64,000 nucleotides of DNA from a virus. The notes beneath the pieces were generated by a model. It did not search any database. It was not told the DNA's origin and saw nothing but the letters and a program-made list of their open reading frames with translations. Each line of letters opens with the position of its first letter. The first letter of the stretch is position 1. The translations under genes were made by a program, and so were the position numbers. The stretch spans positions 1 through 64,000 of IMG/VR virus record IMGVR_UViG_3300050013_000165; one strand, written 5' to 3'. This document shows, piece by piece, positions 15,963 through 58,048 of the stretch.

Positions 15963-16544
15963 ATGGCTGCAAAGAACATCAATACACCACAGGCTCTGAA
16001 GCGTCGAATACGAGAGCAAACAATTGTTGACGACAACGGCTGTTGGATTTTCCAAGGAGCCAAAGATCGAGCAGGGTATGGGCGCTTCTATATGGGGCTC
16101 GGGCAGACTCGACGCACTCATCGCCTCACTTATGAATTGTGGGTAGGGCCAATTCCTGAAGGATTAGAGCTAGACCATCTTTGTAATACTCCGGCTTGTT
16201 GTCGTCCATCACATTTAGAACCAGTTACCGGATTAGAAAATAGGCAACGGGGGACAAAACGTCGAAAGCGATGCGGGCGCGGACATTATTACTCAAAGCG
16301 AAATACCTACATTACGCCGCAAGGTGTTCGAATGTGTCGAGAATGTCGTCGAATCCACGGAAGGATCAATGACGCCAAACGACGTCCTTCTCATCTTCCA
16401 AAGCGAATTTCTCCTAATCATTGTTTTCGTGGGCATCTTTTGACTGAAGAGAACACCTATCGCATTGATGGGGAACGTCGGTGTCGAAAATGCAGTGCCG
16501 ACCGGCAAAGAGGTTACCGCCAAGCGAAGAAAGAAGTTGCATGA
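15963..16544 (+). CDS. HNH endonuclease (HNH_3 type) with C-terminal zinc knuckles, 193 aa
   Basis: Predicted free-standing homing endonuclease. The core GCWIFQGAKDRAGYGRF, THRLTYELWVGPIPEGLELD, HLCNTPACCRPSHLEPVT is the HNH_3 pattern: D-H-L-C, then C-x-P-x-H-L-E. Two C-terminal zinc knuckles follow (KRCGRGHYY with RMCRECRR; NHCFRGHLLTEENTY with RRCRKCSAD), as is common in this family. It ends in ATGA overlap with the glycosyltransferase, and a relic of that gene's start lies at 15899. Confidence 0.9.
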   Translation: MAAKNINTPQALKRRIREQTIVDDNGCWIFQGAKDRAGYGRFYMGLGQTRRTHRLTYELWVGPIPEGLELDHLCNTPACCRPSHLEPVTGLENRQRGTKRRKRCGRGHYYSKRNTYITPQGVRMCRECRRIHGRINDAKRRPSHLPKRISPNHCFRGHLLTEENTYRIDGERRCRKCSADRQRGYRQAKKEVA

Positions 16545-17206
16545 AGATTGTCATTGGATTTCCTGTGAAGGATAGAGCTTGGGTTCTCCCACAGATGCTT
16601 CAAGCGCTCGAACAGCAAGACGTGACCTTCGAAGTCGTGGCGCTCTATACGGCGTCGGAAGACGATACGGAGCAAATCCTCAAAGACCACGGCGTCGAGA
16701 TTCACTATGACGAGAGCCCCGGCAGACCGCGGCACAAGATCGATGGGCACAACTGGGGGACACTCGATCAGTTCGAGTACATGGCGACACTGCGTAATCG
16801 CCTCGTGGACATCTGCATTGAGAAAGATGCCGATTATTTCTTCTCCCTAGACAGCGACATCATCTTGCCGCTGAACGCATTAGAGAGCCTGCTCGCCTTC
16901 TCTCAAAGCCATCCTGGTGTTGTTTCACCGGCCGTCAATATGACCATCAATCAGACGGCGTGGAACATGATGCGCTGGAACGGATTGATCGGTGTCGCTG
17001 ATCGAACCGGCAGAGCTGCGATAGGTGAGACGGGGCAAGCCGACGTAATCATGGCCGCAATGTTGCTCGACCGATTAGGGATGACAGCGCGCTGGCGACC
17101 AAATCCCAATGGTGAAGACATGGGTTTCTGCCATGATTGCGAAGAGAAGGGAGTCCCTAGATGGTGGGTTCGAGAGATCGTGTGTGACCATCTTATGTTC
17201 AGATAA
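16541..17206 (+). CDS. glycosyltransferase, GT2-like, 221 aa
   Basis: Predicted sugar transferase using a nucleotide-sugar donor. The N-terminus MKIVIGFPVKDRAWVLPQML and the strand FEVVALYTASEDDTEQIL fit the GT-A fold; FFSLDSDIILP holds the D-x-D metal site at about residue 107. The C-terminal NGEDMGFCHDCEEKGVPRW, with E-D, is the usual acceptor-side motif. It is flanked on both sides by HNH genes; its 5' end is duplicated at 15899 and its last codons (MFR-stop) recur at the end of the 3' HNH gene. It belongs functionally with the nearby heptose and glycan genes. Confidence 0.85.
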   Translation: MKIVIGFPVKDRAWVLPQMLQALEQQDVTFEVVALYTASEDDTEQILKDHGVEIHYDESPGRPRHKIDGHNWGTLDQFEYMATLRNRLVDICIEKDADYFFSLDSDIILPLNALESLLAFSQSHPGVVSPAVNMTINQTAWNMMRWNGLIGVADRTGRAAIGETGQADVIMAAMLLDRLGMTARWRPNPNGEDMGFCHDCEEKGVPRWWVREIVCDHLMFR

Positions 17207-17625
17207 TGGCTGCTCCATACACACCCGAACTGTTTTGGGCCAAAGTAGTTAAGACCGAAACATGTTGGATTTGGCAAGGAAATAGTGACAATGGTCGGGG
17301 TTACTTTTCGATCATGTGGGCTCAAAAACGACGTTACGTGCATCGCGTAGCATGGGAGTTGGTCAATGGTCCCATTCCAGACGGATTACAAATTGACCAT
17401 TTATGCAGAAACAAGCGCTGTGTCAATCCCACTCACCTCGAACCCGTTACAGGACGCATCAACAAATTGCGTGGAAATACAATCACTCGGAGAAATGCGG
17501 AGGTGACACATTGCGTTCGAGGCCATCCTTACGACAAAGAAAACACCATTGTGGGGACTACGCCCCTTGGAACTCCTCGGCGAGCTTGTCGGAAGTGTCG
17601 AAAGCTTTATCGGATGTTTCGTTGA
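17206..17625 (+). CDS. HNH endonuclease (HNH_3 type), 139 aa
   Basis: Predicted homing endonuclease. It shows CWIWQGNSDNGRGYFSI, HRVAWELVNGPIPDGLQID, HLCRNKRCVNPTHLEPVT, then one zinc knuckle (THCVRGHPYDKENT ... ACRKCRKL). It starts in TAATG overlap with the glycosyltransferase. Its last codons, ATG TTT CGT TGA, spell MFR-stop, the same as the end of the glycosyltransferase (ATG TTC AGA TAA). Its 3' end overlaps the convergent epimerase gene by 68 bases. It is related to, but only partly like, the 15963 enzyme. Confidence 0.9.
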   Translation: MAAPYTPELFWAKVVKTETCWIWQGNSDNGRGYFSIMWAQKRRYVHRVAWELVNGPIPDGLQIDHLCRNKRCVNPTHLEPVTGRINKLRGNTITRRNAEVTHCVRGHPYDKENTIVGTTPLGTPRRACRKCRKLYRMFR

Positions 17626-26130: not shown

Positions 26131-27660
26131 TCATCTCCTCCCCACCCCACTTCTTTCATAGAAGGGGTTGGAATTCCAGACTTCCACTTCGCCGCCTTGT
26201 CCGAACTCTTTTGTCATCCAGCACGCAAGGGCCAAGGAGTCGAGGTAATCGTCGTGAGCGTTCTTCTCGTTCTTTGGTGCGCCGACCAAAAGGTAGCGCC
26301 CTTTGTATTCCTTTTCAACATTCAAAATCTGCTGGATAAATCGTTGGTGGGTCATTAGACGTTGAGTGCGAGGATGTGCAGGCCAGCCGAGCAATTTGCG
26401 TTGGATTAGCTGCATTAAATGCTGCCAGCGCTCGGACTGATCAATTGGATTCATAGCGCAGGCAACTACTTCGATGCTCGGGAGGAGGGTCTGAAGGCGC
26501 TCGGCCACCGGGCCTCCCATGCCCTGAGCATCCACGGCAATCCGCATGACGTAATACCGCGACACGAACTCACAAATCTGTCGGTACTGGGACTCCCAAT
26601 TCTCACCGTGCAGTTCGAGCCAGTTCAAGATGCGATGGTTGAAGAGCCCAAACTCATCGGGGTGTTCCCAGTCCACCCAAATCGCCGTGCACACCGTGGA
26701 GTCGTGCTTCGCTGCGACGTCAATGCCAATCACGATTGGTGATTCGGTGTAATAGGGAACAGTCATCATGTCGTAATCACTTAGTTCTTCGATGATGTCT
26801 TCGGTGACGAACATGCCTCTGTCGAGTAGCCATTTGAGGCAGTACGACATTTGGAACTCGTCCGAGTCTTCGCCGAGCCGTTCTTTTTCCTTCTTGATTG
26901 CCTGTGCGTAGAACTTTGACTCCTTTGCTGCGCGCCGCCAGTCATAGGCGAAATGGTTCTTCTTGCCATTAGACGGTGAGCGTCGCTTATTTCGTTGGAT
27001 CGCTTCGAGGAAGTCAGATGTGTGCGTAGTCGGTGTCCCAATCTTCACAATGGTGCCGGACACAGCAGTCATCATCGGGTGAATACGACGGCGCACTGTT
27101 TCAGAGTCAGCGTCTTGCGCCTCGTCGATAATGATTAGGTGATACGTCGTGGACTCGATCTTCGCCTTAGGGAATGCAGTCTGCTTCCGGCAGAACGAAT
27201 GGTTGTGTCGCATTTGAATGAGGTTCCCGTTCGGGTGAGCCTCATCGTCGATTTCAGGATCAGCGAGAAACTGCTTGGCGTGCTCTGACGTTAGATGCAT
27301 TTCAATGCGACTGAAGAGCGTATCGGCCTGGAAATCAATCGGGGCGAACAGACCAATCATTACACCGTATTTGAATTTCTGAAGCACCTCATCGGTGGGG
27401 AACATCTTGGCGAGTTGGGGCAGGATTACCATCGCCGTCGAAACGACACAGCTAATGGTCTCGGTCTTGCCGCCCTGACGTGTTGCCTCGACAGTGATTT
27501 CGTCGGCGTCGCCAAAGATGAGCGAGAAGAAAATGCGATCTGCCATTTCGAGCTGGTAACTGCGCAGGCTGATTTCACACAGCGATTCGAGCAAAATCAA
27601 ACACTTGTCAGTCAACCATTGCGCCCAGGCGATGCGAGGATTAACTGTTTTTGTTGGCAC
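26131..27660 (-). CDS. terL: terminase large subunit, 509 aa
   Basis: Phage DNA-packaging motor. The ATPase half has VEATRQGGKTETIS (Walker A-like, residues 61-67, with Gln in place of the first Gly) and LIIIDEAQDADSE (Walker B, 176-184), then the coupling motif region IVKIGTPTTHTSDF. The nuclease half has IGIDVAAKHDSTV (Asp314), IAVDAQGMGG (Asp377) and HDDYLDSLALACW, the three acidic sites of the RNase H-like fold. Both halves are complete. The GTG start at 27660 lies inside the HNH gene in front. It is on the opposite strand to portal and capsid. A possible relic of the original start is at 28056. Confidence 0.93.
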   Translation of the reverse strand: MPTKTVNPRIAWAQWLTDKCLILLESLCEISLRSYQLEMADRIFFSLIFGDADEITVEATRQGGKTETISCVVSTAMVILPQLAKMFPTDEVLQKFKYGVMIGLFAPIDFQADTLFSRIEMHLTSEHAKQFLADPEIDDEAHPNGNLIQMRHNHSFCRKQTAFPKAKIESTTYHLIIIDEAQDADSETVRRRIHPMMTAVSGTIVKIGTPTTHTSDFLEAIQRNKRRSPSNGKKNHFAYDWRRAAKESKFYAQAIKKEKERLGEDSDEFQMSYCLKWLLDRGMFVTEDIIEELSDYDMMTVPYYTESPIVIGIDVAAKHDSTVCTAIWVDWEHPDEFGLFNHRILNWLELHGENWESQYRQICEFVSRYYVMRIAVDAQGMGGPVAERLQTLLPSIEVVACAMNPIDQSERWQHLMQLIQRKLLGWPAHPRTQRLMTHQRFIQQILNVEKEYKGRYLLVGAPKNEKNAHDDYLDSLALACWMTKEFGQGGEVEVWNSNPFYERSGVGRR

Positions 27661-28042
27661 GACACTCCAAATAAGTAATCAAAATCTTCAGGCGTTCGAT
27701 GTCGTCATTCAAAAGTCCTAATGCAATGTTGCAATTACGGCAAAGCAATCCTCGGATGCATTTGCCACAAGAACTAGTACCTGGACAACAACTGTGGTCG
27801 TGATCAACACAGAATAATTTGTGCCCGCCTCCTGGTTCTCGTGCTCCACAGATGCAGGTTCCACCTTGTCGCTCTAACAGCTTTTGGTACTCCGCAAGAG
27901 TGATGCTGTAACGGCTCAGAGATCGATTAGCTGATTTTTCAGGGTCGAGGTTTTTACGTTTCGAGGATGCTTTGTAGGAACACATTTGGCAATACGACCG
28001 AGGTCTTCCTTGCGCCGTCTTGAACTCACCTATTGGTTTCAT
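27641..28042 (-). CDS. endonuclease VII-type HNH endonuclease, N-terminally truncated, 133 aa
   Basis: Core motifs: YSITLAEYQKLLERQGGTC, CGAREPGGGHKLFCVDH, DHSCCPGTSSCGKCIRGLLC and RNCNIALGLLNDDIERL. In front of the first ATG the frame continues as IPCEKCGH, which would complete the zinc knuckle C-x-x-C pair with SYCQMC. No start codon lies there: GTG followed by five A and TTCCC is out of frame. With one A fewer it would read GTG AAA ATT CCC TGT, a normal start. So the gene appears to carry a one-base insertion, and the present ATG at 28042 drops one zinc pair. Confidence 0.8.
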   Translation of the reverse strand: MKPIGEFKTAQGRPRSYCQMCSYKASSKRKNLDPEKSANRSLSRYSITLAEYQKLLERQGGTCICGAREPGGGHKLFCVDHDHSCCPGTSSCGKCIRGLLCRNCNIALGLLNDDIERLKILITYLECRANKNS

Positions 28043-43574: not shown

Positions 43575-44347
43575 TGCCTGTCGATGTTGTTGTCGTGAAC
43601 TACAAGACACCGGATTTGCTTCAAGACTTCATTCGTTCTTATGAAGCCTTGGAACTACCGGGTTGCACGCTCACTATTGTTGAAGTTGAAGCGAACATTC
43701 CTGAAGATTGGCTTCGTGCTGAAGAATCCAATTCAAGGCAAACTCTCTTCTTTCGGGAAAACATTGGATATGGAAAAGCGTGCAACGAAGGGGCAGCTCT
43801 CGGGCACAATTCCATAATTCTCTTCGCTAACGCTGACACCCTTTTGAGTGATGGGTTCAGGGAATGCCATGACGCTTTAAGAGACCATCCGAATTGGGGA
43901 GTTCTCGGACCTCGACAAGTGAACGAGTTCAACTGCTTTACTGCGGGCGGCATCCCTGGTGGACCTCACGGCCATGTTCAACGTGGTTGGAACCAAACCG
44001 ATGTTGGTCAGTGCAGCGATGTGCTTGAAGACGTCTACTCGGTTTCGGGTTCGCTTTATTTCATCAAACGCTCTGTGTGGAAAGAACTGACTGAGTGTCC
44101 GGTTTGGAAAGAGTATGCACCCAATGCTGTTGGAGCCTTCTTGGAGACGCGGCACTACTTCGAAGAGACGACGTGTTCTCGGCATCTCACTGCTCACGGG
44201 CACATCAATGTGTTCTACGGACCCGTGAAGATGACACACCTCTTTCATCGTTCATCAGATCACGGGGGTTGGCAGGATCGAGAGGTCACCAACAGCAAAA
44301 CGATGCACAGAGAATTTCTTGCGCTACACGGCATTGAACATGAGTAA
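43574..44347 (+). CDS. GT2 glycosyltransferase, 257 aa
   Basis: MPVDVVVVNYKTPDLLQDFI and FFRENIGYGKACNEGAALGH, then ILFANADTLLSDGF (the N-A-D-x site in place of D-x-D) and VSGSLYFIKRSVWKEL, match the rhamnosyltransferase-like GT2 group. First of the second glycan gene cluster. The last residues GIEHE recur as RIEHE at the end of the following HNH gene, with different codons. Confidence 0.87.
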   Translation: MPVDVVVVNYKTPDLLQDFIRSYEALELPGCTLTIVEVEANIPEDWLRAEESNSRQTLFFRENIGYGKACNEGAALGHNSIILFANADTLLSDGFRECHDALRDHPNWGVLGPRQVNEFNCFTAGGIPGGPHGHVQRGWNQTDVGQCSDVLEDVYSVSGSLYFIKRSVWKELTECPVWKEYAPNAVGAFLETRHYFEETTCSRHLTAHGHINVFYGPVKMTHLFHRSSDHGGWQDREVTNSKTMHREFLALHGIEHE

Positions 44348-44777
44348 CAAACTTCGGTGTAGTGCTTGTCGGCTGAATAAGGGTGAAGCAGAGTTTGCAC
44401 TGAATTCCCGAACTAAGACTGGGCATCAAAATCAATGCCGTAGTTGCATGAAGAAGCACAACTCTCGTTATACAACTGATGATTACCGCTGGAAGAAAAT
44501 CCTTTGGATGTATCATCTGACCCGAGCGCAATTTGAAGCCCTCTTGAAAAAGCAGGGCGGTCGTTGCGCCATTTGTCGGACGAAACGCCCAGGAGGTCGG
44601 TACAACCGTTGGGTAATCGATCACGATCACAAGTGTTGCGACGGCCCTTATTCCTGCGGTAAGTGTGTTCGAGGATTGCTGTGCAATCGATGTAATCACG
44701 GTTTAGGAAACTTTGCAGATAATCAAAAAGCTCTTCAGCGTGCTGTCATCTATCTTGAACGAATCGAGCACGAGTGA
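44340..44777 (+). CDS. endonuclease VII-type HNH endonuclease, 145 aa
   Basis: Zinc knuckle at the N-terminus (LRCSACRLNKGEAEF; NQCRSCMKKHN); core HLTRAQFEALLKKQGGRC, AICRTKRPGG, WVIDHDHKCC, YSCGKCVRGLLCNRCNHGLG. The extra C-C insert in the H-D-H-K-C-C region also occurs in the 27641 gene. Its final codons ATC GAG CAC GAG TGA spell IEHE-stop, the same as the end of the glycosyltransferase in front (ATT GAA CAT GAG TAA). Confidence 0.88.
   Translation: MSNKLRCSACRLNKGEAEFALNSRTKTGHQNQCRSCMKKHNSRYTTDDYRWKKILWMYHLTRAQFEALLKKQGGRCAICRTKRPGGRYNRWVIDHDHKCCDGPYSCGKCVRGLLCNRCNHGLGNFADNQKALQRAVIYLERIEHE
44763..44777 (+). repeat. relic of the glycosyltransferase 3' end (IEHE-stop) fused to the HNH end
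   Basis: ATC GAG CAC GAG TGA here against ATT GAA CAT GAG TAA at 44333-44347. Identical protein, four of five codons changed. The next gene starts in TGATG overlap with this stop, as a normal gene junction would. Confidence 0.65.
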
Positions 44778-45612: not shown

Positions 45613-46223
45613 TTCCAACCTGTGGCGATATCGATGTATGGAAGCCGTTGGCCGAGCGTGCTCAACAGTCGGCCTTCAACCAAGTTGTCAAAGCGAATCG
45701 AGTGATCTGGTCACACAAGGCGACGGTTTCCGAAGCTCGGAACTTCGGAGCTTCACTCAGCACCGGAGATTGGCTGATCTTTCTTGACGCCGACGATGAA
45801 CTTGACCCACGGTATATCGAGCACATGATCGCGGGGAGTGGAGATATACGGCAACCTTCGACGCTCGGGGTCGTTAATGGCGTCGAGGATGATTTTCCAG
45901 TTCTTATCGAGCAGAAGAGCCTCATCATAGGTAACTATCTGATAATCGGCTCGATGGTCCGGCGGAAGTTGTTCTTGTCGGTAGGGGGTTTCCGTGACTT
46001 CCCGATTCTTGAAGATTGGGATTTATTTATTCGCCTCGCACTGGCTGGGGCTAAAATTGGCAAATGCCCTGATGCCATTTATCGGGTGCATGTACTTCCC
46101 GATAGTCGAAATAAACAGGGAGACTCAATTCATGGCAGCGTCTACAGTCAAATCCAAAGGGAACACGAAGCCGCTTGGTTCGCAAAGTTCCACCGTGACG
46201 AGTCATCCTTGTACGTTGTGTAA
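45576..46223 (+). CDS. GT2 glycosyltransferase, 215 aa
   Basis: VDVIVPTCGDIDVWKPLAER, ARNFGASLSTGDWLIFLDAD (D-A-D-D site), FRDFPILEDWDLFIRLALAG and PDAIYRVHVLPDSRNKQ are the GT2 order, including the E-D-W-D-L acceptor motif. The GTG start is uncertain (45576 or 45588). Its 3' end overlaps the HNH gene by 92 bases. The last 60 residues have a close but different copy at 46886-47071, the likely original end. Confidence 0.82.
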   Translation, partial: EVQDSVETVDVIVPTCGDIDVWKPLAERAQQSAFNQVVKANRVIWSHKATVSEARNFGASLSTGDWLIFLDADDELDPRYIEHMIAGSGDIRQPSTLGVVNGVEDDFPVLIEQKSLIIGNYLIIGSMVRRKLFLSVGGFRDFPILEDWDLFIRLALAGAKIGKCPDAIYRVHVLPDSRNKQGDSIHGSVYSQIQREHEAAWFAKFHRDESSLYVV

Positions 46224-46608
46224 GCGACCAATTAAGAGCAAATACAAGCGTTGCAGTAACTGTCGTCAAGGTCAACGAGAGGATTATTACGCCAATCACG
46301 ACCGCTTATTGAAGAAAATGCGTGAGCGTGATCCAGAAGGACGATTTGCTTACAACATAAAGCGTTGGTACGGAATCACGCTTGACGAGTACAACTCTTT
46401 GTTGAAAGAGCAGGGCGGGGGGTGCGCCATTTGCCATTCGACAGAACCGGCAGGCAAAAGAGTCAAGCGGTTTTCTGTTGACCATGACCACCGGACCGGA
46501 AAAGTTCGAGGTCTGCTTTGTAATCTTTGCAATCACTTGCTTGGCTGTGCTCGGGATGATTTGCAGCTTTTAGTAAATGCCGTTGCGTATTTGGAGCGGG
46601 TGGCATGA
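46132..46608 (+). CDS. endonuclease VII-type HNH endonuclease, 158 aa
   Basis: Zinc knuckle HPCTLCKRPIKSKYKRCSNC, then WYGITLDEYNSLLKEQGGGC, AICHSTEPAG, FSVDHDHRTGKVRGLLCNLC and NHLLGCARDDLQLLVNAVAY. Complete core residues. AGGGAG lies 9 bases before ATG 46132, which is inside the glycosyltransferase gene. It separates the gene from its duplicated 3' end. Confidence 0.88.
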   Translation: MAASTVKSKGNTKPLGSQSSTVTSHPCTLCKRPIKSKYKRCSNCRQGQREDYYANHDRLLKKMRERDPEGRFAYNIKRWYGITLDEYNSLLKEQGGGCAICHSTEPAGKRVKRFSVDHDHRTGKVRGLLCNLCNHLLGCARDDLQLLVNAVAYLERVA

Positions 46609-51551: not shown

Positions 51552-53309
51552 ATGGCGATTAGCTTCGTTTCTAATTCTTACCGAGCGTCGTCATCAGACC
51601 TCACGATTGCGATTAGTCCGCTCGGGCTCGTTGAGCTTGCCGACGAAGAGTTCGAGGTTCACGGGCCACGCCTCAATCGGTACGCATCCAACTGGGCCTT
51701 CTACCTTGGGCACCACTGGTCGTATCGGCGCGAGATCGGCGAGCCCCAACTCACGTTCAACTGGTGTAAGACGTTCAGTGATTACCTCACGAACTTCGCA
51801 CTCACCAACGGAGTCAATTTCTCGTCCCCCGAAGCGACGTCGGCGATTGTGCCGGAGCTGTTGCGCCAGGTTTGGGAAGAGCACCAGCCAATGGGCAAGA
51901 TGGCTGTGATGTGGGAGATCATGCAGCAAGGCTCGGTCTCCGGCGACTCGTTTGTCAAGGTTGCATTTGAAGAGGCCTACGACGACCCGGCGGGCAACTT
52001 CCACCCACCGAAGATTCGCATCCTTCCGCTCAACAGTGCCTTCTGTTTTCCTGAGTACCACCCCCACGACATGTCGCGCCTAATCCGCTTCAAGATGAAG
52101 TACCGCTTTTGGGGAACGGCGCTCGAAGGCACTCGACAGGTGTTCTCATATACCGAGCTTTGGACTGAAGACGCCTTCCAGTCGTTCATCAATGATGAGC
52201 TAATCGAGAGCCAAGAAAACCCGCTCGGGGTAATCCCGTTCATCCATGTCTCGAACACGAAGGTGCCGTCGTCGCCGTGGGGCTTGTCTGACATTCAAGA
52301 CGTCACGGACCTCAACCGGCAGTACAACGAGACGGCCACATTGATTACTGACATCGTGAACTACTACGCATCGCCGGTCACGATCATTACCGGCGCGAAA
52401 TCGAACAACCTCGAACGCGGCCCCCGCAAGGTATGGGCAATTCCGAATAAGGATGCTCGTGTTGCCAACCTCGAAATTAACTCACAGCTCGATGGACCTT
52501 TGAAGTTCCTCGAAACGCTGAAAGAGAAGATGCACGAGATTGTCAACATTCCGATGAATGCTTTTGGGCAGGAGTTGCAGATCAGCAACACCTCGGGCGT
52601 CGCACTTCAAATCACGTTGCTGCCATTGATGCAGAAGTTCCGACAGAAGTCGATTCAGTACGAGTCGGGGCTTGTTCGAGTTAATGAGCTAATCATCCGT
52701 GTCGCTTCGGTCTATATGCCGGAGCTTTTGCAGTTCGATCCATCTCGGGATGTCTTGCCTGAACCCGGTCAGCTTTCCGTGCTCGATCCGCTTGATCCTT
52801 TGACGTTTCGAAATAGTGTCGAATTTGCCAACCCGATGCCCATTGACAAGACGTTGGCTCTTCAGGAAATCCAAATGGAGATGGCACTCGGGCTCTTGTC
52901 GAAGCGTGGCGCTCTTCGCCGTCTTGGCGAGGCTTACCCCGCAGAAAAGCTCGAAGAGCTGTATAACGAATTGCACCTCGACCAACTCGAACAAGGTGCG
53001 CTCGATTTGCAAAGCGCACAGCTTCAGGTACTCATTCCGTTTCTCACCGGCATTTCCCCGACAACTGGGGAGCCGGTTGGAGAGGAAGGAGGGTCCGCAT
53101 CTACGACCAGTGCCGGTCCTGCTGTTCAGTCTGCCGGTGGCCCAGGTGTCAACACGGCGACTGCAACACAACCAGGCTCGGCGATGCCAAACATTTTCGA
53201 CAATCCAGAGACGAAGGATTTGCTCACTCGGCTCTCCACACTGGCGGCGGGAACCAAAGTTCCGCAAGTTCGGAATCCACTTCATGATCCAGAGGACGAC
53301 AATTCCTGA
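51552..53309 (+). CDS. portal protein, 585 aa
   Basis: Fits the phage portal family by length, position and motifs: LADEEFEVHGPRLNRYASNW, WCKTFSDYLTNFALTNGV, GDSFVKVAFEEAYDDPAG, NPLGVIPFIHVSN, VTDLNRQYNETATLITDIVN and MNAFGQELQISNTSGVALQI. The C-terminal 80 residues are Thr/Gly/Pro-rich and probably disordered. It forms the dodecameric DNA channel. TGATG overlap with the following HNH gene; no duplicated 3' end seen. Confidence 0.9.
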   Translation: MAISFVSNSYRASSSDLTIAISPLGLVELADEEFEVHGPRLNRYASNWAFYLGHHWSYRREIGEPQLTFNWCKTFSDYLTNFALTNGVNFSSPEATSAIVPELLRQVWEEHQPMGKMAVMWEIMQQGSVSGDSFVKVAFEEAYDDPAGNFHPPKIRILPLNSAFCFPEYHPHDMSRLIRFKMKYRFWGTALEGTRQVFSYTELWTEDAFQSFINDELIESQENPLGVIPFIHVSNTKVPSSPWGLSDIQDVTDLNRQYNETATLITDIVNYYASPVTIITGAKSNNLERGPRKVWAIPNKDARVANLEINSQLDGPLKFLETLKEKMHEIVNIPMNAFGQELQISNTSGVALQITLLPLMQKFRQKSIQYESGLVRVNELIIRVASVYMPELLQFDPSRDVLPEPGQLSVLDPLDPLTFRNSVEFANPMPIDKTLALQEIQMEMALGLLSKRGALRRLGEAYPAEKLEELYNELHLDQLEQGALDLQSAQLQVLIPFLTGISPTTGEPVGEEGGSASTTSAGPAVQSAGGPGVNTATATQPGSAMPNIFDNPETKDLLTRLSTLAAGTKVPQVRNPLHDPEDDNS

Positions 53310-53869
53310 TGGCATTGACGTCAGTTGAAAGACGACGGCTGTACGTCCAACGCCATCCCGAACGTGTTGCTGCTTCCAAGAAGTCCTATGGCGCAACCGA
53401 ACGAGGCAAGACGACAAAGAGGAATTACAACCGTCGATATTACGAAGAGCATGGCGAAGAAATTCGCTCCCAGGCGAGAGATTGGTGTAAACAAAATCTT
53501 GATCGCAAGCGGCAACTGAACCATGTTTGGCGTGATGCCAATAGAGAGCATTACAACGACACCCAGCGAAGTTGGTATAAGACCAATCGAGAACAAAACC
53601 TATTGCAGCGCCGTGCTTACGACGCTCTGGTTGCAGCCCAAAGGCGTGCTCGAAAGCGTGGGGCTCAAATTGGTGCGGTCACTATCGAGCTTCTTCAGGA
53701 GAAGTGGAATTATTGGTTTGGGCGTTGCTGGATGTGCGGAAAACAAGCTGAAGCTTGGGATCACGTAAAACCTCTAGCTAAGGGCGGTGCTCATTGCCTC
53801 GCAAACCTTCGTCCGGCATGCAAACCATGCAACAGCCGAAAACGAGATCGTTGGCCGTTTCGTAACTGA
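53309..53869 (+). CDS. HNH endonuclease, 186 aa
   Basis: Long basic N-terminal helix region with repeated R-x-x-Y/N units (RRRLYVQRHPERVAASKKSY and on), then the HNH core GRCWMCGKQAEAWDHVKPLA, KGGAHCLANLRPACKPCNSR, KRDRWPF. The D-H-V-x-P-L-x-x-G-G and N-x-x-P-x-C-x-x-C-N residues are intact. It separates portal and scaffold. Confidence 0.9.
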   Translation: MALTSVERRRLYVQRHPERVAASKKSYGATERGKTTKRNYNRRYYEEHGEEIRSQARDWCKQNLDRKRQLNHVWRDANREHYNDTQRSWYKTNREQNLLQRRAYDALVAAQRRARKRGAQIGAVTIELLQEKWNYWFGRCWMCGKQAEAWDHVKPLAKGGAHCLANLRPACKPCNSRKRDRWPFRN

Positions 53870-54888: not shown

Positions 54889-55881
54889 ATGGCCTCTGCA
54901 ATTACCGGCTCGCCTTATCTGGCCGCTTCGCCGACTGGATATGCGGGCGCAAACTCAACGCTTGGGCAGGCAATCCAGACGATTTGGTCCAAGGAAATCC
55001 TGTTCCAGGCAATGCCCATTCTGCGCTTCGAGCAGTTTGCGGTCAAAAAGACGGAGCTTGGTGTTCAGCCTGGTCTGACCATCAACTTCATGCGATACAA
55101 CAACCTGCCAAATGCTTCGCAGTTGGTGGAAGGTGTTCGCATGCAGACCGTCGCTTTGACGGCGAGCCAGTTCTCGATCACGGTTGCAGAACAGGGCTTC
55201 GCTGTGTCGGTCACGGAGCTGTTGCTCAATGCCTCGTTCGACGACGTCATGGCTTCGGCCTCCCGTCTGCTCGGACGAAACATGGCGCAGTACCTCGACT
55301 ACAGCGCTCGGAACACACTGCTTTTGGCGTCGTCAGTGATCTTCGGATACAACTACCTCGCCACCGACAACCCGCGGACCACGCAGTCGCCGTATGACCA
55401 CGGCTCCGCTGCAACGTCCACCAACGGGTTGACGGGGAACTACTACTTCACCCCGGCTTTGGTGAAGGATGCAGTATTGACCCTTGCTTCGAAGAACGTT
55501 CCTCGCCTCGGTGAGACCTACGTCTGCTTCGTGGCACCGACCCAGTCCCGAGAGCTTCGAGACTGCCCTGAGTTCATCGAGGTTACGAAGTACGCCGCCC
55601 CCGGCAACTTCGCCCTTGGCGAGATCGGTCGGCTTTGGGACTGCGTGTTCATTGAGACCACGCAGGTCAACCAAGCGCAGACCACGGCCGCTACTCCGGC
55701 CACGTACTACCAGGCGATCTTCATCGGCGACAATGCTTTCGGGCATGCGATTTCGTTGCCGGTCGAGCTTCGTGACGGTGGCGTTCTCGACTTCGGTCGA
55801 GAGCACGCTCTGGCATGGTACGCGATTTGGGGTCTTGGATTGATTACAGATTGGTCGGTCGTGATCGCAAATACCAACTAG
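54889..55881 (+). CDS. major capsid protein, N4-gp56-type, 330 aa
   Basis: Matches the N4-gp56/HK97-fold capsid family: SKEILFQAMPILRFEQFAVK, KTELGVQPGLTINFMRYNNL, MASASRLLGRNMAQYLDYSA and RLGETYVCFVAPTQSRELRD. Shine-Dalgarno AAAGGAG lies in front of ATG 54889. The end ITDWSVVIANTN-stop is duplicated as TDWSVVVANTN-stop at 57078-57113, with synonymous codons changed almost throughout, so the 3' end here is a replacement brought in with the HNH cassette. Confidence 0.92.
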   Translation: MASAITGSPYLAASPTGYAGANSTLGQAIQTIWSKEILFQAMPILRFEQFAVKKTELGVQPGLTINFMRYNNLPNASQLVEGVRMQTVALTASQFSITVAEQGFAVSVTELLLNASFDDVMASASRLLGRNMAQYLDYSARNTLLLASSVIFGYNYLATDNPRTTQSPYDHGSAATSTNGLTGNYYFTPALVKDAVLTLASKNVPRLGETYVCFVAPTQSRELRDCPEFIEVTKYAAPGNFALGEIGRLWDCVFIETTQVNQAQTTAATPATYYQAIFIGDNAFGHAISLPVELRDGGVLDFGREHALAWYAIWGLGLITDWSVVIANTN

Positions 55882-55889
55882 TTGAACTC

Positions 55890-55915
55890 CCCAGTAGTTG
55901 TGTTAAACTGCTGGG
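55890..55915 (+). terminator. hairpin between capsid stop and HNH start
   Basis: CCCAGTAGTT and AACTGCTGGG form ten pairs (one G-U) around a 6-base loop. It ends exactly before the ATG of the HNH gene, where a ribosome site would lie. It may stop capsid transcripts or hide the HNH start; no T-tract follows. Confidence 0.45.
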
Positions 55916-56659
55916 ATGACAATCAGAACGTGTGCTCTGTGCCCAGCACAGAAAGCTCCATACAAACATCCAGAAGACCCTGAGCTTCGTATCTGTCAGG
56001 CGTGCAAGCGTCGATTAGAACGACAAGCTCGGGGTCTTTTGCTGCCAGGACCAAAGCCTGATCCAACACGACCAAGGTCACGATATGGAACACAACGGGA
56101 AGGAAGCCCAAATCGAATATCACGTCGTCAATTTGCGACTGAAACTCGCTGTGCCAACAATCACCTGTTTACCAATGAGAGCACGTATTGGCGCAAAGAC
56201 CCAAATGATGGAGTAGAGCGTCGAATCTGCCGAATTTGTTTGCGAGCAGCACAGCGCAAATCAAAAGGGCTTCCAGCAATTCCAGATGACACTCCGTTTG
56301 GACCACGCAATAAAGACAAGACGCATTGTCCACAAAATCATGAGTACACGCCAGAGAACACTTACACCTATAAGAGCGGTCTTCGTCGATGCCGAAAATG
56401 TATGCGAGCGCAGCAAATACGACACGATTATGGGATTGAGCCGGAGCAGTTTGACTTTTTTATCGAGAAGCAAGGAAATGCTTGTGCGATTTGTGAGCGG
56501 TCGTTTGAGGTGGAAACACCGCACGTTGACCACGATCACGCTGACGGGCATGTACGAGGCATTCTCTGTCGTCCTTGTAACTCGGGCCTCGGGTTCTTTG
56601 AGGATTCCCTGACGATGCTCAGGCGGGCCGTTCGCTACTTGGATAGGATTTCAGCATGA
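55916..56659 (+). CDS. endonuclease VII-type HNH endonuclease with zinc knuckles, 247 aa
   Basis: Three or four zinc-binding parts (RTCALCPAQKAPYKHPED with RICQACKRRLER; TRCANNHLFTNESTYWRKDP with RICRICLRAAQRK; THCPQNHEYTPENTYTYKSG with RCRKCMRAQQ), then the nuclease core YGIEPEQFDFFIEKQGNACA, HVDHDHADGHVRGILCRPCN. The C-terminal SGLGFFEDSLTMLRRAVRYL is usual. It is longer than its relatives here because of the repeats. It starts immediately behind a hairpin and is the endonuclease of the capsid-gene cassette. Confidence 0.9.
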   Translation: MTIRTCALCPAQKAPYKHPEDPELRICQACKRRLERQARGLLLPGPKPDPTRPRSRYGTQREGSPNRISRRQFATETRCANNHLFTNESTYWRKDPNDGVERRICRICLRAAQRKSKGLPAIPDDTPFGPRNKDKTHCPQNHEYTPENTYTYKSGLRRCRKCMRAQQIRHDYGIEPEQFDFFIEKQGNACAICERSFEVETPHVDHDHADGHVRGILCRPCNSGLGFFEDSLTMLRRAVRYLDRISA

Positions 56660-57078
56660 GCAGGATTTCACCGCAGGCTCAACGACTAAAGGACGCCGCC
56701 GCCAATGTCACCGGCCACCCAAAAAGCTTTTTTACGGTTCGCACCGAGAAGAACCGTTATGGCGAATACGGTGATGCTCATCTCGATTTGAACATCCGAA
56801 ATATCGTTCGAAAAGGAAATGGGCTGACGCATAGAGATGTTCACGAGAATCTTGCGGATCACGCCGATGATCTTGCAAAGCAAGGCTTGACCGTGAATGT
56901 GATTCACTCTTTGGACGGTCGCCGGAGCACCCATGTCTCGTCTACTCACAACCCTCGGCAAGAGGTGGCGGAATATCAAAATGGCAAGTGGAACACCCGT
57001 TCTCTGTTTCACGACCGTCGTCAATTGAGCGCCCAGGAACTTCGAACACTTCAAAAGCCGGATTCGGAGTGGAACTAA
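56656..57078 (+). CDS. hypothetical protein inside the capsid-gene cassette, 140 aa
   Basis: Not recognised. ATGA overlap with the HNH gene. Basic, mixed α/β, with FFTVRTEKNRYGEYGDAHLD, LTVNVIHSLDGRRSTHVSS and FHDRRQLSAQELRTL. Its stop TAA overlaps the capsid relic by one base. It is thus part of the inserted unit, perhaps an accessory or cargo gene. Confidence 0.65.
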   Translation: MSRISPQAQRLKDAAANVTGHPKSFFTVRTEKNRYGEYGDAHLDLNIRNIVRKGNGLTHRDVHENLADHADDLAKQGLTVNVIHSLDGRRSTHVSSTHNPRQEVAEYQNGKWNTRSLFHDRRQLSAQELRTLQKPDSEWN

Positions 57079-57113
57079 CCGACTGGTCGGTGGTTGTGGC
57101 GAATACGAACTAA
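57078..57113 (+). repeat. relic of the original capsid gene end (TDWSVVVANTN-stop)
   Basis: ACC GAC TGG TCG GTG GTT GTG GCG AAT ACG AAC TAA here; the capsid gene ends ACA GAT TGG TCG GTC GTG ATC GCA AAT ACC AAC TAG. Ten of eleven residues agree, with synonymous third-base changes in six codons. The true capsid terminator follows 30 bases later. This is the strongest of the duplicated ends. Confidence 0.9.
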
Positions 57114-57142
57114 CGTCTCCAATCGAGACGTCTGCAAGGCTG

Positions 57143-57168
57143 AGGCCCGCCCTTCGGGGCGGGTCTTT
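57143..57168 (+). terminator. intrinsic terminator, probably original to the capsid gene
   Basis: AGGCCCGCCC and GGGCGGGTCT form a 10-pair stem with a TTCG loop, then TTT. It lies 30 bases behind the capsid relic, where the original capsid gene would have ended. Confidence 0.85.
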
Positions 57169-57169
57169 G

Positions 57170-57370
57170 CTATTCGAGGGCTTCTGTAATGAGGAAGCTC
57201 ACTCGTTCGTCGTCGCGCCATCGCACATAGAGATCGACCATTTCGTCAATCGCTTCCCACGTTGTGACGAATCCACAACGGGCGGCTTCTCGGGCAGCGG
57301 AATTGCGCAGACGAACACGCACCTCATCGTTGCTGATTGTCGTCCAGTACGGAACGAATCCGCCGAGCAT
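57170..57370 (-). CDS. hypothetical protein, 66 aa
   Basis: Not recognised. Helical, basic and acidic residues balanced (EVRVRLRNSAAREAARCGF; EAIDEMVDLYVRWRDDER). Ends against the terminator of the plus-strand transcript. It is the only minus-strand gene among the structural genes apart from the HNH-AP2 gene. Confidence 0.55.
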   Translation of the reverse strand: MLGGFVPYWTTISNDEVRVRLRNSAAREAARCGFVTTWEAIDEMVDLYVRWRDDERVSFLITEALE

Positions 57371-57469: not shown

Positions 57470-58048
57470 ATGGCGCAGCCAAAAGGTAATCGAGGTCCAG
57501 ACCGGGCGAGTGCGGGAAGCCGTCGCTCTGCTCGTTCCCCCGGCGACATGACCGGGCGAGTAAAGGACCAACAGGCGAAGGCAGCCAAGGCTGATCTTGA
57601 AGAGCGCGGAGCAGAACTCACAATGATGAACTCAGCGCAGGCCGACGACGAAGAGCACGGTGTCTTCGACGGCCAGTCCGGTGACCGTGTTGATTTGCGT
57701 GATGCACAAAACCGTCACGTTGTAATCGATGACGAAGGCGATGACGATGAGAGCTTCCGATTCGCTCCTCAATTTGCCGAGGAAGAGCCCACTTTGACTG
57801 GTAAGGAAAGCGCCGAAACGCTTGCGCCAATCATCGCCGCCCGACGACAGCACGCAGCGCCTCCGGCGCACGCAGTTCGTTCGTCGATGGCAACCATTCG
57901 CGTCGATCAAGACATCGAGGATATGACCTACGGAGTCGTGAACGGCCGACCAAATAACTTCACACTCCGTGAGGGGTTGAAGTATCGATTGCCGCTTCCC
58001 GTGGCCGAGCATTTGAACGATCTCGGGTTGGTTCGCCAATGGTTCTAA
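57470..58048 (+). CDS. phage structural-region protein, 192 aa
   Basis: AAAGGAG precedes the ATG. The first half is basic and disordered, the middle very acidic (DDEGDDDESFRFAPQF). The end NFTLREGLKYRLPLPVAEHL, NDLGLV is a motif seen in many phage proteins encoded between capsid and tail genes. Its function is unknown; perhaps head completion. Confidence 0.7.
   Translation: MAQPKGNRGPDRASAGSRRSARSPGDMTGRVKDQQAKAAKADLEERGAELTMMNSAQADDEEHGVFDGQSGDRVDLRDAQNRHVVIDDEGDDDESFRFAPQFAEEEPTLTGKESAETLAPIIAARRQHAAPPAHAVRSSMATIRVDQDIEDMTYGVVNGRPNNFTLREGLKYRLPLPVAEHLNDLGLVRQWF

Follow-up and report, generated by a model that had tools for sequence, protein, structure and literature searches.

A free-standing HNH homing cassette has probably replaced the 3' end of a phage major capsid gene and left the displaced end behind as a scar

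Why would a phage carry the end of its major capsid gene twice, once on the gene itself and once more behind two further open reading frames? This question is raised by the window analysed here, a stretch of 64,000 nucleotides covering positions 1 to 64,000 of the IMG/VR virus record IMGVR_UViG_3300050013_000165. From comparison with related phages, we consider it likely that a free-standing homing cassette has replaced the 3' end of the capsid gene, with the displaced end surviving downstream as a scar. The features on which the argument turns all lie on the plus strand:

54889-55881, plus strand: major capsid protein (MCP) gene, complete, with a 3' end that appears to have been replaced
55840-55881, plus strand: capsid 3' end, last 13 codons and stop, putatively cassette-borne; the left edge of the replacement is nominal
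55882-55915, plus strand: gap containing a 10-bp hairpin that stops immediately upstream of the HNH start codon
55916-56659, plus strand: gene of a free-standing EndoVII-type HNH (DHHRN) endonuclease of 247 aa (PF02945, E=1.1e-21)
56656-57078, plus strand: ORF2, an orphan of 140 aa, overlapping the HNH gene at ATGA and sharing base 57078 of its stop codon with the relic
57078-57113, plus strand: relic, the putatively displaced capsid 3' end, with no start and out of frame with ORF2
57135-57172, plus strand: intrinsic-terminator-like hairpin behind the relic, taken as the original MCP terminator
57470-58048, plus strand: conserved next gene, encoding a DxTGR protein, which directly follows the MCP gene in HNH-free relatives

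The capsid protein matches the phrog_1357 major head protein (E=2e-61) and, above the cut-off, PF25209, and is 70-72% identical to the major capsid proteins of Streptomyces phages such as BRock and LuckySocke. Its C-terminus reads ITDWSVVIANTN (GLGLITDWSVVIANTN), closed by the stop codon TAG. The relic reads ACC GAC TGG TCG GTG GTT GTG GCG AAT ACG AAC TAA, which translates as TDWSVVVANTN and a stop and thus forms a frame of 36 nt (11 codons plus stop) without a gene of its own. That this is a genuine duplicate of the capsid end, as a preliminary description of the locus had proposed, is borne out by a profile built over 12 positions from MCP ends across the family, in which the relic scores 39.8 and unrelated sites downstream of the MCP gene in 80 relatives reach at most 6.5. 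It is also the only match outside MCP genes in 1.97 Mb of related sequence searched in six frames. Two further IMG/VR contigs, 3300037132_000201 and 3300050014_000587 (99.96-99.98% identical), share the whole arrangement, so that misassembly is an unlikely source of it.

The two copies agree in 10/11 residues, the sole change being between I and V, and a recount upheld the earlier statement that six of the ten identical residues are written with different codons; the stop codons differ as well (TAG vs TAA). Altogether, 9/36 nucleotides distinguish the relic from the present capsid end, eight of them at third positions (binomial p = 0.001), a pattern of difference like that between the capsid genes of different phages. 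Because the differences are nearly all synonymous, both copies seem to have evolved as functional ends; judged by their codons, they are two diverged, functional capsid ends and not a gene end with its decayed duplicate. Compared with native ends, the relic matches those of the relatives L106 and L001 at 31/36 and 30/36 nucleotides, respectively, vs 27/36 for the end of its own capsid gene, and it is as near to the native ends of this clade as these are to each other. The W-type end that it carries is common to L001, L002, L003, L004, L106 and L108. The present capsid end matches the ends of relatives at 30/36 nucleotides at best, though even the nearest relatives are only around 80% identical in DNA.

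What follows the relic also suggests that it is in the place of the native capsid end, since a terminator hairpin and the DxTGR gene come next, as they do behind the MCP genes of relatives. The canonical terminator noted in the preliminary description is in part confirmed: the hairpin is real (-27.6 kcal/mol, z -5.1, with a UUCG loop), but a strict terminator scan does not list 57135-57172. Hairpin-like sequence stands directly behind the MCP stop in many relatives, in which a short, often hairpin-bearing gap leads from the capsid gene to the DxTGR gene. The stretch from the relic's stop to the DxTGR gene measures 357 nt, a longer gap than in relatives, and a 66-aa open reading frame lies on the minus strand between the two (57170-57370).

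Capsid genes of relatives without the HNH gene, a comparison that had been proposed along with the initial observation, revealed the empty site. From the MCP stop to the next conserved gene it is 87-236 nt in five of the nearest relatives, the cassette-free L001, L002, L003, L004 and L108, vs 1,589 nt in the window. The records of L001, L003, L004, L106 and L108, most of which are fragments, yielded no PF02945 gene. The HNH gene itself is bound to this position. Its closest relatives (E <= 1e-21) in a family-wide search made without the capsid are ten other distinct elements (L025, L037, L043, L065, L084, L132, L141, L190, L194 and L198), all of which lie directly behind an MCP gene of the same family, as does the HNH gene of L016. 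Sporadic presence at one precise site between conserved genes, with the empty site in relatives, is the distribution of a homing gene, and from these genomes the HNH lineage is evidently tied to exactly the 3' site of the capsid gene. The same slot holds other small open reading frames in L003 and L106 (MVWKNGKDPIHIKASRVGTF... and MAWKNGKDPIHIKASRVGTF..., respectively), directly after the capsid stop.

The nuclease is assigned to the EndoVII-type (DHHRN) HNH class by its PF02945 domain and its D-H-H-R-N residues: D205, H206, H208, R214 and N222 are invariant across ten aligned HNH proteins. Matches in the PDB are Hpy99I and T4 endonuclease VII, and several CxxC-like motifs precede the nuclease domain on its N-terminal side. 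The hairpin in the gap before the gene (-17.1 kcal/mol, z -5.1) possibly exerts translational control over the nuclease; hairpins before some nuclease genes control homing endonucleases of the T4 type (PMC2988022). A promoter-like match in the same gap is not significant, unlike the clear match TTGACA-17-TACCAT found in L194 and L198, and inverted or direct repeats between the capsid end and this gap are no more frequent than chance. ORF2 is, by its ATGA overlap, probably coupled translationally to the nuclease. It has no match in Pfam, NCBIfam or phage records (best E in PHROGs 0.06), relatives in phages and other genomes were found in the two near-identical contigs only, and its fold prediction from the single sequence is poor (pLDDT 57). 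Since L016 has an unrelated frame in the coupled position of ORF2, the accessory cargo behind the HNH gene may be exchangeable; this small frame (L016:3414-3725) is likewise ATGA-coupled to the HNH gene, has no family match and shows no evident kinship to ORF2.

Does the company of the nuclease leave a mark on capsid ends more generally? For 13 capsid genes next to an HNH gene and 79 not so placed, we measured how well the codons of conserved residues agree with those of the closest relatives that lack the HNH gene. The agreement over the last 13 codons minus that over the gene body has a median of -0.13 with and +0.07 without the HNH gene (p = 5.8e-5, kinship ignored); this segment gives the strongest signal of 26, and codons 1-13 also deviate (p = 0.002). 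The capsid tail of the window itself departs from its gene body in this direction (-0.13). Synonymous recoding of the capsid end thus appears linked to the presence of the HNH gene, though not universally, as L016, L025 and L037 carry the gene without an unusual capsid end. Recoding from the Ile codon of LITD onward is near-complete in L065, L043 and L075. The clearest case is L065, the end of which runs ATA ACT GAC CAA AGT GTG ... GCC GAG ACG AAT, where its relatives mostly have ATY ACN GAY CAG TCT GTA ... GCA GAA ACC AAC, and its recoding begins at a codon that adjoins the position where the relic of the window starts. Ends recoded from the same Ile codon onward also occur with no adjacent HNH gene (L147, L177, L182, L184, L186 and L187; L078/L176; L068), and these are possibly escape alleles or sites that have lost the nuclease.

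Taken together, the earlier idea of a selfish insert that spares the protein gains support from the empty sites, the native-like relic, the site-bound HNH gene and the recoded capsid ends, and the following course of events would account for the locus. A homing cassette would target the last dozen codons of this MCP family, its HNH enzyme presumably cutting capsid genes that lack the cassette, close to the conserved codons for LITD(Q/W). With a phage that bears the cassette as template, repair would then copy in a differently coded but functional capsid end together with the HNH gene and its coupled ORF2. The new end would preserve the essential protein and disrupt the recognition sequence, so that the carrier genome should stay uncut. 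The 3' half-site of the recipient, comprising its last 11 codons and stop, would survive as the relic on the right-hand side of the insert, ahead of the original terminator, and may have served as the right-hand homology arm. What can be read off the genomes directly is that the capsid end is duplicated and has diverged synonymously, that the site is empty in relatives, that the HNH lineage keeps to this site and that recoding of the tail goes with the HNH gene; the cutting, the self-protection of the carrier, the part of the relic as homology arm and the direction of the replacement, with it the choice of the native end, are what we infer from them.

A clear relic is found in one genome lineage only. 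Decayed relics were sought behind the MCP genes of around 150 relatives and around some 80 relatives of the HNH gene, and none was seen except for a possible stub in L037. There, the HNH protein ends in VETN and a stop, the same as the MCP of this phage, with GTG GAG ACG AAC TGA at the HNH end vs GTC GAG ACC AAT TAG at the MCP end, and a terminator-like hairpin stands behind the former. Only two distinct ends of this form outside MCP genes occur among 86,428 frames, which is suggestive of a second, shortened scar.

The most serious competitor to this account, itself unlikely, turns the direction around: the present capsid end would be native, and the cassette would have brought the right flank of its donor (capsid end and terminator), which was joined behind the stop by imprecise recombination. 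The duplicate as such would be explained just as well in this way, the two ends are of one and the same W-type clade, and codon usage marks neither as clearly foreign; a search for foreign codon usage in the capsid end gave no significant signal (ca. 12th percentile). Against it, GC3 falls to 0.55 in the last 20 codons of the capsid gene (a percentile of ca. 10 only) compared with 0.73 in its body and 0.75 in the relic, HNH-bearing phages generally have altered capsid ends, and in the fungal parallels discussed below it is the downstream copy that is native (PMC3630166). The two direct-orientation copies that flank the insert could also bring to mind that the capsid 3' end was simply duplicated, locally or as a target site, which we regard as very improbable: a dead copy would not hold 10/11 residues while 25% of its bases change, nearly all at third positions, nor should it be nearer to the end of another phage's gene than to its own. 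Target-site duplication was rejected on this codon evidence.

Introns do occur in this gene family, with a group I intron in L042 a few codons upstream of the site (2031-2288, between ALAW and YAIWGLGLITD; Rfam RF00028, 70 bits) and another, probable, in the first part of the gene in the close relative L004 (5094-5317, near the start; 40 bits, below the gathering score). The insert might by analogy be a degenerate or active intron with TDWSVVVANTN as its downstream exon and a 5' end that mimics this exon, but we give this the least credence of all, given that the capsid frame of the window is complete without splicing. An intron reading was also dropped for the insert as such, in which no Rfam group I or II match was found at E <= 5. 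Hardly more plausible is an ordinary intergenic HNH insertion, with the relic as a chance remnant of recombination and the enzyme serving not in homing but, e.g., as a resolvase or packaging nuclease. Most HNH-bearing relatives indeed lack a visible relic, and HNH genes near late genes can serve packaging (PMC10448857), but the relic clearly derives from a capsid end, the HNH gene is sporadic and confined to one precise site, and its EndoVII-type catalytic set is common to site-specific enzymes.

Returning to replacement by a homing cassette as the favoured explanation, its closest parallels are mobile ORFs of fungal mitochondria, known from Glomus atp6, atp9, cox2 and nad3, Allomyces atp6 (Paquin 1994) and Rhizopus atp9 (PMC3630166). 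In the Glomus genes and in Allomyces atp6, a C-terminus of foreign origin is accompanied by an endonuclease ORF and by the native end that was displaced (PMC3630166). As in these cases, the window has an endonuclease ORF behind a gene with a seemingly replaced 3' end and the displaced end further downstream, the copies resembling each other in protein but having diverged in DNA, and the protein being intact. Unlike them, it belongs to a double-stranded DNA phage, concerns a structural gene, uses an EndoVII-type HNH instead of a LAGLIDADG or GIY-YIG enzyme, includes an extra coupled ORF and has a scar of only 36 nt. Among phage systems, F-CphI of cyanophage S-PM2 is a characterised free-standing homing endonuclease of the same EndoVII (DHHRN) type (PMC6083498), with which our predicted enzyme shares the catalytic motif, a free-standing gene beside its presumed target and, putatively, a target made resistant in the carrier. 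F-CphI, though, has its own target shielded by a group I intron (collaborative homing), whereas in the window this role apparently falls to the recoded gene end. The intronless homing of T4, represented by SegF, SegG and MobE and by the mobA insertion at gene 60 (PMC2988022), resembles our case in the sporadic free-standing nuclease beside an essential gene, the co-conversion of flanks and the hairpin before some nuclease genes. Its cut sites, however, are at least hundreds of bases away from the insertion, whereas the scar of the window sits at the very edge of the insert, and no displaced duplicate of a gene end has been described for T4 (PMC2988022). A phage example of C-terminus replacement by a mobile ORF was not found in the mostly open-access literature searched.

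If correct, homing by end replacement would extend the fungal strategy of bringing one's own gene end to phages and to an essential structural gene, and it would explain how a free-standing nuclease can target vital coding sequence at close range with its carrier unharmed. It is possible, though we hold this broader view with some reserve, that a recoded 3' end for 'immunity' is a fixed component of such cassettes, which would create hybrids of an essential capsid gene with each transfer. One family would then have specialised on the capsid gene of a wide Streptomyces-phage-like group and would drive the turnover of synonymous alleles at its 3' end, even in phages from which the nuclease has meanwhile disappeared. 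Synonymous variation at the ends of capsid genes may reflect escape from a nuclease rather than codon optimisation. The relic, the present end, the cassette-free ends and the recoded ends of L065, L043 and L075 form a matched set of natural substrates for studying recognition, immunity and homing.

Beyond the capsid locus, the genome of the window is rich in HNH-type nucleases, with further HNH-like open reading frames at 53309-53869, 44319-44777, 45994-46608, 15963-16544, 17206-17625, 27641-28042 and 1819-2442. Two relatives, L065 (6084-6100) and L132 (4494-4510), contain AACTGGTCYGTAATAAG immediately behind the capsid stop and ahead of the HNH gene. This is the reverse complement of the capsid codons for LITDQ, and no other reverse-strand LITDQ site occurs in 1.37 Mb. 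The two sites could be an inverted relic or an operator for autorepression, a mode of control known for I-TevI (PMC2988022).
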